Origin: Rhodanobacter sp. B04
Lineage (GTDB): Bacteria; Pseudomonadota; Gammaproteobacteria; Xanthomonadales; Rhodanobacteraceae
Reading direction: 5' to 3'
Length of the DNA stretch: 64,000 nucleotides
Assembly (NCBI RefSeq): GCF_002001125.1
Contig: NZ_MUNV01000008.1
Coordinates: forward strand, 124,001 to 188,000
Positions 14,676-24,555 of the stretch are shown here, in pieces. The notes beneath the pieces are model-generated. The model did no database searches. It was given only the letters and a program-made list of their open reading frames with translations, and was not told the DNA's origin. How positions within the stretch are numbered: the first letter of the stretch is position 1; each line of letters begins with the position of its first letter. The translations under genes were made by a program, and so were the position numbers.

Positions 14676-15030
14676 GGGGGTGTCCTGGCTTCGACGGGGG
14701 TAGTGAGATGACTTGGTGCATGCCGAGGGGGCAGCTTTCCTCGTTAATCCAGCAGCAAACTCATAGTTGCCAACGACGACAACTACGCTCTCGCCGCTTA
14801 AGGCGTAAGCCCCGAACCCACTTGTGCTCGTGCTCGTCGGTGTAGGGTCATTATCACGGGATCGCCGAAGACTGCCGCCTGGCGGTACTAGGTCAGATCA
14901 ATCAGGCTGGTTTCGCGGTGCGCTTTGCCCACCGTGCTTGTCGCGGAACGAGATCGAACGGTGAGCTAAGCATGTAGATCCGGGCATTTAACGCCTTCGG
15001 ACGCGGGTTCGACTCCCGCCACCTCCACCA
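14676..15030 (+). ncRNA. ssrA: Transfer-messenger RNA (tmRNA)
   Basis: tmRNA rescues stalled ribosomes with SmpB. The 5' end GGGGGTGTCC pairs with the 3' end CACCTCCACCA as a tRNA-like acceptor, and the T-arm is GGGTTCGACTCCC. The tag reading frame at 14769-14801 encodes ANDDNYALAA followed by TAA. Downstream pseudoknot-like GC-rich segments are present. The last 17 bases also serve as the attachment site of the integrated element; the gene is left intact. smpB lies about 12 kb away, beyond the accessory region. Confidence 0.97.
15014..15030 (+). repeat. attL: 17-bp direct repeat at the ssrA 3' end
   Basis: TCCCGCCACCTCCACCA forms the end of ssrA here and recurs exactly at 24539-24555. It is the crossover core left by integration of the element between the two copies. 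Confidence 0.9.
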
Positions 15031-15083
15031 GTCCTATCGACAGGTTAGCAGTAAACCGCTGATCTGTCGAGCTTTTTCTGGTT

Positions 15084-15135
15084 AAAACGATACTCAAAAC
15101 GCCCTTTAGACAGGTATCGTTTTGGGTATCGTTTT
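15084..15135. repeat. Left-end integrase arm-type repeats
   Basis: GGTATCGTTTT occurs at 15113-15123 and 15125-15135, with starts 12 bp apart. An inverted near copy (AAAACGATACTC) lies at 15084-15095. The last copy abuts the integrase ATG. The same 12-bp-spaced pair recurs at the other end of the element. Confidence 0.6.
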
Positions 15136-16797
15136 ATGCCAAAGCCCCACTTTTTGCGCCGCCCCTCGGGCCTCTATGTGCGCTTCCTGATACCGCTCGA
15201 TTGTCGCGCCGCCTTCGGTAGGCGCTATCTCGTGCGCAGCCTTGGCAACCTCGCCGGCGATGCCGCCAGGCTGACCGCTGCCCAATTTGGTTACAATCTA
15301 GCGCAGTCAATTGGCGCACTGCGCGCAGGGATGCCGATGGTCAAGAAACGCAAAACACTACCCGGCCCGATGATGCTCAAGCATGGCGTGGGCTATGCGC
15401 CGCTGGCCTCATCGCTGCCGCCCCCTGAAGCACTGGCGGATGAGGTTGACCCGTTTGCGCCTGGCGATCACACACCCCCGCCGGTGCGCATTCAAAACGG
15501 CGCGGGCGATGAAGTGTTTCACTACACCCAGCAAATGGGGCCGGATGGGACGTTTACCCTGACCACGGACGGCACGGAAGAAGATCACAGGCGGGCGATG
15601 GAAATGGCTGCGCAAATGGCCGTCCATTTTCATGGCGCCGTGGCGCCGGCCGCCCCGGTTCAATCCGCGCGCCCGTCGCCCCTGTTGTCAGTAAACATCC
15701 CGCTTTTTCTGACCCAGTTTCGACAGAAAAAGCCTTCTGCCGCCAACATCCTGGACACGACTTTTACGCTGCGTATCCTGTTGTCCGTGGTCGGGGATAA
15801 GCCAGTGCGGGATGTAGAAGCGACCGACATGGATAAGTTTCTCGATGCCATCCAACACTGGCCGCCCAATGCGACCAAGCAGGCAGCTTTTAAGGATCTG
15901 ACACCTGCTGCCATCGTGAAGAAGGCAAAGAAGCTCGGCGGCCGAGTGATTTCCCAACGCACCCAGGAGAAGCATCTCGATAGCTTGCGCAAATTTTTCA
16001 AATGGTGCGTGAGGCGGAAGGAGCTCGATGATAATCCCGCCGCTGGTCTTCATGTGATGACCCGGGCGGAAGAAGAAACCCGGACGCGCCGGGCGTTCTC
16101 GGATGCTGAACTGGCAACGATTTTTGACCCCGAGCGCCGCGCCAAGCATTGCGATACGCCCAGCCGGTGGTGGCTTCCGCTCCTGGCGCTCTACACCGGA
16201 GCGCGAGCCCAGGAGCTGGCCCAACTTCGCGCGGCAGATGTTGAGGAGGTGGCGGGTATCTGGGGGTTACATATCACCGCCGCCGGGGAAGGGCAGCACC
16301 TGAAAAATGCGCAGTCGCGCCGGTTCGTGCCGCTCCATCCCGCGCTGATTGCTGCTGGCTTGCTCGACTATCGAGCGGATGCGATCGCGGCGGGTGCTGA
16401 TCGGCTTTTTCCGGGTCTAGGCGCCAAGCCTGGCGACACTGTTGGCGACTGGTTCAACCGCACCTATTTGCGTTCGGTGTGCGGCTTCGACGCGGGCCAG
16501 GTTTTTCATTGCTTTAGGCATTCTTTCAGCACGAAAGCCGACCGCGCCGGGGTCTCAGAAGCAAGAATTGCGCGGATCACGGGGCACAGCACTGGCGGTT
16601 CCATCCTACGCGAGCACTACATCGACGCGCCGAGCCTCTTGGAACGACTGGCGACCGTTAGCGCCGTGGTCTTCGATCTGCCGCCTGTGGCCCCGTATGC
16701 CGCGGGCCGTTTCGCCGCCTTCTTCACCAAGCATAAGAAGGTCCAGCGCCGCAAAGCGGCGGTGGACGGTCGTGCCAGACGCAGCAGTAAAGCCTGA
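15136..16797 (+). CDS. int: Tyrosine-type site-specific integrase
   Basis: This 553-residue recombinase should integrate and excise the element at ssrA. The N-terminus resembles the DUF6538-type arm-binding region (HFLRRPSGLYVRFLIP). A core-binding SAM-like domain lies around residues 190-300. The catalytic domain shows Arg in YTGARAQELAQL, HxxR as HCFRHSF, a following GHS, and the tyrosine in LREHYID. The ATG at 15136 directly abuts a repeat, with no clear Shine-Dalgarno sequence, so translation may be weak or controlled by integrase binding. A Lys/Arg-rich tail ends the protein. Confidence 0.92.
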   Translation: MPKPHFLRRPSGLYVRFLIPLDCRAAFGRRYLVRSLGNLAGDAARLTAAQFGYNLAQSIGALRAGMPMVKKRKTLPGPMMLKHGVGYAPLASSLPPPEALADEVDPFAPGDHTPPPVRIQNGAGDEVFHYTQQMGPDGTFTLTTDGTEEDHRRAMEMAAQMAVHFHGAVAPAAPVQSARPSPLLSVNIPLFLTQFRQKKPSAANILDTTFTLRILLSVVGDKPVRDVEATDMDKFLDAIQHWPPNATKQAAFKDLTPAAIVKKAKKLGGRVISQRTQEKHLDSLRKFFKWCVRRKELDDNPAAGLHVMTRAEEETRTRRAFSDAELATIFDPERRAKHCDTPSRWWLPLLALYTGARAQELAQLRAADVEEVAGIWGLHITAAGEGQHLKNAQSRRFVPLHPALIAAGLLDYRADAIAAGADRLFPGLGAKPGDTVGDWFNRTYLRSVCGFDAGQVFHCFRHSFSTKADRAGVSEARIARITGHSTGGSILREHYIDAPSLLERLATVSAVVFDLPPVAPYAAGRFAAFFTKHKKVQRRKAAVDGRARRSSKA

Positions 16798-16956
16798 CCC
16801 GCGCCCCCGGCACGGCACGGCCTAGGCCGTGCTCCGCCGCTCTTGTCCCTAGTGGTGGGGTGTGGGGCGCCGCCCCACCTGAACCCACGCGCTGGGCTTG
16901 GCCCAGCTGCTTTTTCGTCCCATCAAAAAAAGTGCGCGCTGCCGGCGCGTCTCTTT

Positions 16957-17107
16957 TCTAAAGCTTTTGTCTAGAGCTTAAAATCTAAAGCTGTTATCTA
17001 TGGAACCCGGAAAGCCAAGCCCAGCAATGGTTTCCAGGCATTCAAATAGCAACTGTTCCCCCCACCCGTAGCAACTATTCCCCCTTTTCGTAGCAACTAT
17101 TCCCCCC
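16957..17107. other. Putative vegetative origin: AT-rich 13-mers plus 22-bp iterons
   Basis: Three near-identical AT-rich repeats beginning TCTAAAGCT or TCTAGAGCT start at 16957, 16970 and 16984 (13-14 bp apart). About 60 bases later three copies of TAGCAACTATTCCCCC (first copy with one change) start at 17047, 17069 and 17091, exactly 22 bp apart. This is the layout of an iteron origin with a DNA-unwinding element. It lies directly upstream of a TrfA-like initiator gene. GC-rich hairpins (TGGGGC/GCCCCA, CTGGGC/GCCCAG) fill 16860-16910. Confidence 0.7.
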
Positions 17108-17158
17108 TCGGGGGCTTCCGGCCAGCCGAAAATTCACTACAACCTAGGAGAGGGCGGC

Positions 17159-23786: not shown

Positions 23787-23801
23787 AGGTTGCCACTGGC
23801 G

Positions 23802-24395
23802 TTACAGCGCCGCGGTGGAGACCTTCACGACCGTTTCGGATCCCGGGTGACCGTTTTGATACAGGAGGCCGGCGGGTGTCGCCAGATACCCCGGGCCACC
23901 GGCAAAGTCATCGGGCGAAAAATGGTCGATTGCTGCGCGAGTGAGCGGCAAGATGTCGTAGTCATCCATGCCCATGGCGCCAAGCAAAATCTTGTCGTTC
24001 GGGTTCGGAGAAAACCGTTTCAGTGCGGGATGCCCATGGATCGTGACGCCCGTGGGCTTCATCCCTGACGGCACCCGACCAACTACGACGGCGCAACCGA
24101 TGTGGCTATGACTAGAGCCCAGAATGAGCCCCCAGCTTTTGCCGTCCGGGGCTTGCCCAATTTCGGCGCACGCTTCAAAGCCAGTGCGGTCGATAAACGC
24201 CCGGATGGGGGCACGAATGCTATCCAAAAACTGGGTTTCTGTTTCCCCGGCCTTGCTCGTCAAAGTGCCGAGAGCTTCATAGCCCAAGCCCCTCACATCT
24301 TGAGCCTGTGCCGATTCAATTCCCATTACCGCAATCGAACCAGTGCCCCAAGCCAGCAAGCCCAAGAGGGCCCAAACCCGTGATCCTTTGACCAT
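23802..24395 (-). CDS. Secreted protein with HxH-type motifs, JAMM/DUF4329-like
   Basis: This 197-residue protein has a Sec signal peptide (GSRVWALLGLLAWGTGSIAV, cleavage near AQA, residue 31). The mature part shows SSHSHIGCAVVVGR, VTIHGHPALKRFSPN and HFSPDDFAGGPGYLATPAGLLY. An HxHP followed by S-x-x-D and a YLATPxGxLY tail recalls JAMM-like and DUF4329 domains, which can be metallo-hydrolases, but I cannot assign a reaction. It converges on the pilin gene with 15 bases between stops. It could process the cell wall or pilin; that is inference. Confidence 0.5.
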   Translation of the reverse strand: MVKGSRVWALLGLLAWGTGSIAVMGIESAQAQDVRGLGYEALGTLTSKAGETETQFLDSIRAPIRAFIDRTGFEACAEIGQAPDGKSWGLILGSSHSHIGCAVVVGRVPSGMKPTGVTIHGHPALKRFSPNPNDKILLGAMGMDDYDILPLTRAAIDHFSPDDFAGGPGYLATPAGLLYQNGHPGSETVVKVSTAAL

Positions 24396-24452
24396 GACGC
24401 CAGTCCTCTAAGAGGACTGGCGCCCACCGCCCGTGCGGTGTTAGCCTTCAAA

Positions 24453-24475
24453 GATACCGTTTTGGGTATCGTTTT
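24453..24475. repeat. Right-end integrase arm-type repeats
   Basis: GATACCGTTTT at 24453-24463 and GGTATCGTTTT at 24465-24475 are spaced 12 bp, as at the left end. The shared block TTTTGGGTATCGTTTT is identical at both ends of the element. Confidence 0.6.
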
Positions 24476-24538
24476 TTGCACCGAAAATTTAGCGAAAAGC
24501 CTGCATTTTCAGTGTGTTGTGACGGGGCATTTTGACTG

Positions 24539-24555
24539 TCCCGCCACCTCCACCA
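24539..24555 (+). repeat. attR: second copy of the 17-bp core
   Basis: This is an exact copy of the ssrA 3' terminal TCCCGCCACCTCCACCA. Sequence beyond it (TTTCAAGCTCC) should be the original ssrA downstream flank. Confidence 0.9.

Follow-up and report, generated by a model that had tools for sequence, protein, structure and literature searches.

Going by the sections of the cited papers drawn on here, several described systems come close to the element that is the subject of this study. Members of the SGI1 family are chromosomal integrative and mobilizable elements (IMEs) with a replicon of their own (PMC7826253); their variants are targeted to trmE and depend on IncA/C helpers (PMC8409611), and their TraNS, TraHS and TraGS proteins take the place of helper subunits (PMC5389848). 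Replication genes and type II restriction-modification (R-M) genes are also known in IMEs (PMC5704250), while that 2017 review uses the word pilin zero times and states that no Proteobacterial IME among those it covers was canonical. In conjugation by thin pili, the heads of PilV recognise lipopolysaccharide of the recipient (PMC5430464). In drinking-water Stenotrophomonas, an IME-like region of the MOBQ type is reported at tRNA-Ser and, apart from it, an island whose left neighbourhood contains the transfer-messenger RNA (tmRNA) gene ssrA (PMC13310844). Here we analysed a stretch of 64,000 nucleotides from Rhodanobacter sp. B04 (contig NZ_MUNV01000008.1, positions 124,001 to 188,000; henceforth the window, whose coordinates we use throughout). 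Judged from its sequence, the interval 15014-24555 of the window can be assigned on solid grounds to the IMEs, and we consider it probable that the element as a whole is explained by four functions, namely replication, R-M, mobilization through a MOBQ relaxase and its origin of transfer (oriT), and, with less assurance, a PilV-like adhesin with a JAMM-motif partner.

The element resembles SGI1 in being a chromosomal IME with its own replicon and, putatively, its own parts for the mating machine of a helper. It differs from SGI1 in its location (ssrA, with a sister element at tRNA-Gly, rather than trmE), in its MOBQ relaxase, and in supplying a type IVb pilin with an exchangeable head; a profile scan of its eight proteins found no member of the traN, traH or traG families. 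With MOBQ IMEs and plasmids that have an RSF1010-type oriT it shares a MobQ relaxase and an RSF1010-like nic region, whereas the module of pilin and JAMM genes sets it apart from canonical MOBQ IMEs. We base the assignment to the IMEs on exact 17-bp repeats, clean empty attachment sites, a terminal integrase and the element's own relaxase and oriT. An integrase with att repeats at a specific site and a relaxase with its oriT are present, and the eight proteins scanned include no T4SS (type IV secretion system) channel family, hence no mating-pair formation system of the element's own.

The target gene, ssrA, was located by ARAGORN at 14676-15030 on the plus strand, and its 3'-terminal 17 bp constitute the attL core, TCCCGCCACCTCCACCA (15014-15030, plus strand). 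Pattern search located the same 17 bp at 24539-24555 on the plus strand, the attR core, such that ssrA stays whole despite the insertion at its 3' end. Allowing up to one mismatch, these were the only two sites in the genome of 3,805,490 bases (the reversed control pattern had 0), and with up to three mismatches the window contained one additional match, at 16241 (shuffle mean 0.28 matches). Outside the 17-bp cores, identity between the left and right ends stops at either edge, and the repeats predict that excision of 15014-24555 would release a circle of 9,525 bp. The genome contains one full-length match to the element, namely the integrated copy, which rules out a free plasmid or a second copy in this genome.

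To see what the site looks like in relatives, we used 45 genomes of the genus (including that of strain B04), of which 43 had a match to ssrA and 30 loci were read, i.e., the window's own and 29 others (one of the 29, L047, stops at the 17-bp core and is still counted). In 5 of the 29 (G021, G017, G024, G046 and G015) the core runs straight on into the right flank known from the window, at 94-97% identity, with a single 17-bp copy and a match running from 24539 to 24626-24640. Two further loci had ssrA joined to this flank at 74-85% identity, and in 14 loci the stretch matching the window from 27343-27366 onward, which we take to be smpB, began at most 80 bp from the core. Yet another genome, G051, harboured a different element at ssrA, 2.55 kb long and bordered on either side by these 17 bp, with an integrase 36% identical to that of the window over residues 1-445. 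Taken together, the clean empty sites and the different element at the same core indicate that attachment is precise and that the interval is an integration hotspot. A preliminary description of the window, prepared from its letters, had proposed an insertion at ssrA with exact 17-bp borders from the end of that gene and a tyrosine integrase immediately inside the left one, and had named clean attB sites in relatives as the point on which this would turn; each of these proposals is confirmed here.

The integrase in question is a tyrosine recombinase of 553 aa (15136-16797, plus strand; PF00589, 7e-7), whose gene begins 106 bp past the left core. Residues R357, K390, H458/R461, H484 and Y495, which we take to be the catalytic ones, were invariant in all three integrases aligned. 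The sequence GTATCGTTTT occurs four times in the whole window, each time at most 110 bp from one of the cores: three copies lie within 15084-15135 (15084 on the minus strand, 15114 and 15126 on the plus strand) and the fourth, found by motif search, at 24466-24475 on the plus strand. As similar repeats flank the integrase gene in relatives too, they are probably arm-type integrase sites. A profile built from three integrase sequences had matches (E≤1e-40) in 52 of 398 genomes of the order, strain B04 included. Among the 29 loci of the best further matches from these genomes, the integrase gene lay directly downstream of ssrA in 14, of a tRNA-Gly-type 3' end in 11, and of neither in 4 (L132, L137, L138 and L141). 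Of 8 loci examined with ARAGORN, 7 have a tmRNA or tRNA-Gly(CCC) gene, and the remaining one (L186) is a right end only. We also observed that the tmRNA genes occupied by integrase-family relatives in L142, L143, L144, L145 and L147 encode unusual tags, namely ANDDNYGSDFAIAA in four cases and ANDNYYGDNSVALAA in one.

The MOBQ (MobA/MobL) relaxase (19539-21257, minus strand) matched PF03389 at 8e-48 and scored 208.2 bits against the MobQ model NF041496 (cut-off 200), and the mobilization protein TraD (21542-21859, plus strand) matched PF06412 at 2.5e-12. Between the two genes lies the oriT (21356-21384, plus strand), which reads GCAAACCC-GGA-GGGTTTGC-C-TAAGTGCGC, i.e., a perfect 8-bp hairpin followed by TAAGTGCGC. 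This arrangement was found in 12 of the 13 elements searched (L144 had no exact TAAGTGCGC): in all 12 a perfect stem of 7-9 bp, built from 8 different arms, preceded the motif, and a stem of at least 7 bp arose in 12 of 6000 shuffles (stems were measured sequence by sequence since the alignment misplaced the rows of L145 and L148). In L159 and L160 the motif sits apart from the relaxase gene. Substrates labelled Rsf1010 have, in the portion of the source used, a hairpin followed by TAAGTGCG/CCC (PMC4814116). The likeness is the hairpin directly 5' of TAAGTGCG/C, by analogy with which the nick would be expected between 21383 and 21384; the difference concerns the bases past the nick, CTAT in the element versus CCCT in RSF1010. 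Beyond the lack of a T4SS channel family among the eight proteins, the VirB4 profile PF03135 (the only T4SS marker searched) matched nothing in the genome, meaning that transfer would need an incoming helper.

Using tblastn, we detected the same gene order, from integrase (Int) through cargo, relaxase (Mob), TraD and pilin to the JAMM-motif protein, in five other Lysobacterales loci (L074, L075, L078, L151 and L158), situated at ssrA, at tRNA-Gly(CCC) and at one secondary site. Specifically, L074 (metagenome-assembled genome contig JAFLEA010000033.1) is inserted at ssrA between two copies of TCCGCCCACCTCCACCA; L151 (genome G419) and L158 (G401) have exact repeats at ssrA and tRNA-Gly and predicted circles of 12,533 bp and 11,852 bp, respectively; L075 (Pseudoxanthomonas winnipegensis) occupies the secondary, non-ssrA site with a 12-bp core common to both ends, and its own ends retain ssrA-like sequence; and L078 (IMG/VR) has its Int end cut by the stretch fetched. 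Right ends were found as well, reading Mob-TraD-pilin-JAMM-core in L186 (G253, a genome that also holds an ssrA-int contig end, L126) and pilin-JAMM-core in L185 (G426) and L076 (P. kaohsiungensis). Two loci are set apart from these. In G015, whose ssrA site is empty, a Mob gene is found at a place other than ssrA (L059, 7440-11163) together with an attR-like end, in which the 17-bp core is exact, and neither L059 nor L097 contains a matching integrase. In G113 (L106, 7337-10487), a tmRNA gene (7337-7688) precedes fragments of an integrase and of a pilin and then a JAMM gene, and the stretch closes with a second, variant core at 10471; we take it to be a degraded relative.

What the sister elements do not have in common is their cargo. 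The window's element carries a replication gene and BglII-like R-M, L075 a SmaI-type R-M, L151 a ResIII helicase, and L158 PD-T4-5-like and PIN proteins, so that varied and probably defensive cargo (two kinds of R-M, a PD-T4-5-like protein and a ResIII helicase) is borne on one mobile chassis. In the window, an MT-A70 DNA methyltransferase (18172-18840, plus strand, GTG start; PF05063, 5e-28; PADLOC MTase_II, 2.8e-93) adjoins a BglII-like restriction endonuclease (18836-19399, minus strand; PF09195, 6e-46; no PADLOC match), which is the arrangement of a type II R-M system, with a putatively common specificity. Upstream of them, three tandem 22-bp iterons (17047-17112, plus strand; 77-82% identity to the first copy) precede the gene for a TrfA-like plasmid replication initiator (rep; 17183-18091, plus strand, ATG at 17183), which is 25-33% identical to plasmid proteins, most of them annotated TrfA (among the 25 matches listed, of 30).

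Given these plasmid-like features, one might suppose that an ordinary small plasmid with a TrfA-like initiator, a MOBQ relaxase and R-M was caught by an unrelated integrase, making the package a one-off. Both rep and the relaxase do have plasmid homologues, and rep adjoins a related methyltransferase gene in another genome of the order too (G222, locus L190). We nevertheless regard this as very unlikely, having disfavoured it already because the other elements repeat the order Int-Mob-TraD-pilin-JAMM but have no rep, a distribution that points to rep as the newcomer. Indeed, tblastn found no match to rep in the five sister elements, and rep was present in only 5 of the 398 genomes of the order, strain B04 included (identity is 44% for the relative in G181 and 40% for that in G222), with no integrase match around it in the other four. 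We therefore rejected rep as a core gene of this element type; it appears to be a lineage-specific addition, peculiar among the elements compared to the window's member. In PLSDB, all matches to rep, relaxase, pilin and the JAMM protein were below 60% identity, and no record was common to rep and relaxase among the matches listed (25 of 30 and 25 of 4574). As a separate observation, in G181 and G465 (loci L189 and L191) a TrfA-like rep gene has a match to PilS-type pilin within about 1-3 kb.

The most distinctive part of the element is its right end, where a type IVb (PilS-type) pilin is encoded at 22014-23786 on the plus strand. The pilin domain extends to about residue 184 and is followed by a C-terminal extension of about 400 aa, comprising some 280 aa of Cys-rich repeats and a variable head of about 110 aa. 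In structural comparison the model's fold was of type IVb, nearest to S. typhi PilS (whole-model predicted TM-score, pTM, 0.34), and the head gave no convincing match. Comparing proteins by stalk and head (the last 100 aa), we found pairs with similar stalks and no head match, namely L151/L186 (93%), window/P0003 (77%) and L075/L158 (82%), as well as the reverse in L075/L078 (stalk 31%, head 80%). At the DNA level, L151 and L186 are 92% identical over 3,757 bp, diverge from within the pilin gene to within the JAMM gene, and are again 88% identical over 516 bp. A profile scan of genome contigs for the pilin produced 7 pattern matches, of which 0 were confirmed. The combination of a constant type IVb pilin part with alternative C-terminal heads recalls PilV of the IncI thin pili and its shufflon. 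In contrast to the shufflon, no Rci-type gene lies beside the pilin gene, no second recombinase family was found among the eight proteins, and heads vary between elements rather than within one; the Cys-rich repeat stalk and the JAMM partner are further differences. The pilin gene also lacks inverted repeats of at least 25 bp. TcpB and CofB, which are minor pilins, are encoded within complete pilus operons, whereas this pilin stands alone on its element.

The last gene, unnamed in the preliminary description, is convergent to the pilin gene at a distance of 15 bp (23802-24395, minus strand) and encodes a protein of 197 aa with a complete JAMM motif (E74, H120xH122, S160xxD163). This motif, E-HxH-SxxD, was whole in 17 of 17 sequences, as in JAMM/MPN metalloproteins, from which the protein differs by its signal-peptide-like N-terminus. 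It had no Pfam or NCBIfam match; PfJAMM1 and AF2198 head the structural list for its model, and a Foldseek search was uninformative. A profile scan yielded 5 loci from 15 stretches of genome contigs and 3 loci in viral contigs. In the pair with a common head (L075/L078) the JAMM proteins are 82-87% identical, and in the pair with a common stalk (L075/L158) 28-41%. We found no open-licence paper linking JAMM with the terms conjugative, pilus and peptidase and, by titles and the starts of abstracts, no open-licence description of the Int-cargo-Mob-TraD-pilin-JAMM package. The iteron replicon, the R-M, the MOBQ relaxase, the pilin and the lack of conjugation machinery were all anticipated by the preliminary description and hold up in the analyses given above. 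Its view that the package matches no family it could name is retained in part: the package is undescribed in the literature surveyed, whereas the class to which it belongs is known, and its module set recurs as a type of Lysobacterales IME.

Because JAMM relatives were read from frames in prophage-like loci (L072/L077 and L079) and ssrA is a common phage integration site, the element might be a satellite that borrows its tail or capsid from a helper phage. This we find hardly credible, since the integrase is the sole phage family among the eight proteins (profile scan; PHROGs not run) and a relaxase with a conserved oriT is present instead. A rather unlikely reading, carrying more weight than either of the foregoing, is that pilin and JAMM do not serve conjugation but join the host's type IV pili, or act in adhesion, biofilm or the masking of phage receptors. 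The host has seven T2SSE-family matches, hence its own pilus or type II secretion system (T2SS) machines, and the two genes are paired outside recognisable IMEs (L073, L184, L188, L101 and L102). However, the pair adjoins TraD, Mob and oriT in six fully read IMEs (window, L074, L075, L078, L151 and L158), TraD-pilin fusions exist (P0088 and P0093), and the fold is nearest to PilS. Moreover, one plasmid neighbourhood combines T4SS with pilus genes: on S. maltophilia pACYCe.8N_1 a JAMM relative (31%) adjoins a weakly resembling Cys-repeat protein, T2SS/type IV pilus-like genes and a T4SS.

Our preferred explanation, that of an IME equipped with a PilV-like adhesin, would work as follows. Binding of the TrfA-like protein to the iterons would let the excised circle replicate, while the BglII-type R-M pair would punish loss of the element, block phage, or both. 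The MOBQ relaxase would nick oriT at 21383/21384, and the conjugation pore of a helper would export the element. With less assurance, we infer a tip-adhesin role for the pilin: its exchangeable head may sit in the helper's thin (type IVb) pilus, as PilV does, and serve to choose recipients or keep hold of them. An exported partner of the head, processing it or acting on its ligand, is what the JAMM protein may be. The idea that the pilin equips the helper's pilus draws on two analogies, the SGI1 TraNS, TraHS and TraGS proteins and the PilV heads.

Several observations weigh against this explanation. The assembly shows the element as one integrated copy, and the missing VirB4 match means that no resident helper was seen. 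Among 20 regions downstream of integrase genes from this family, Mob was detected by tblastn in 10 and the full module in 2 (two of the 20 were shortened by contig ends). The pilin lacks Glu5, presumably a feature of typical pilins, and its model has the pTM given above. The link between JAMM protein and head is thin: Spearman coefficients were 0.47 with the head and 0.17 with the stalk over 45 non-independent pairs from 10 loci, of which 3 are not IMEs and in which just 5 pairs had any head match. JAMM proteins are also 44-58% alike in several pairs without a head match, and 48-76% in L151/L186. Of the 14 loci fetched for the JAMM family, 11 have a relative of this protein but no pilin that could be detected, relatives also sit in the prophage-like loci mentioned above, and the Cys-repeat resemblance on pACYCe.8N_1 reaches only E 4e-5 over 31 aa. 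Finally, the relaxase reading frame has no ATG, GTG or TTG at its N-terminus (ATC at 21257, CTG at 21251), such that the protein may be poorly made or dead.

This last point invites the reading of a fixed, decaying IME, once mobile and now trapped by the lost relaxase start and the want of a helper, with the R-M pair holding it in place. At the position of ATC the sisters L074, L151 and L158 have TTG, ATG and TTG, the genome is without a PF03135 match, and among the 45 genomes of the genus rep is found in this one only. Yet both borders, the integrase, oriT and the frames of rep and pilin are intact, the CTG two codons on could serve as a start, and P0003, whose stalk is 77% identical, shows that a related pilin exists elsewhere; we judge decay unlikely, somewhat more so than a role of the pilin outside conjugation.

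Beyond attR, the stretch 24784-26600 contains three attC-like 58-bp repeats with small frames between them (the copy at 26068 reads GCCTAAC...GTTAGGC). Taking these motifs to be attC sites, we read the stretch, which lies between attR and smpB, as the remnant of integron cassettes. The N-terminal part of an IS110-family transposase (24922-25527; PF01548) adjoins one of them, presumably placed as in attC-targeting IS110 relatives. G015 (L066) has similar repeats too, five in number by place, downstream of its ssrA.

The destination of mobilizable elements is largely attributed to their helpers. We tentatively propose, as a possibility falling short of the probable, that a family of Lysobacterales IMEs carries a diversifying recipient-recognition device, in which the head of a tip pilin is exchanged between elements together with its JAMM partner, such that the element and not the helper would pick recipients. 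The JAMM protein would then be an enzyme that is specific to the head and either processes it or cuts a ligand. The natural pair L151/L186, with 92% identical DNA, 93% identical stalks and unrelated heads, renders this idea of recipient choice testable. If it is true, owning an exchangeable tip adhesin would mean that a passenger can steer its vehicle.

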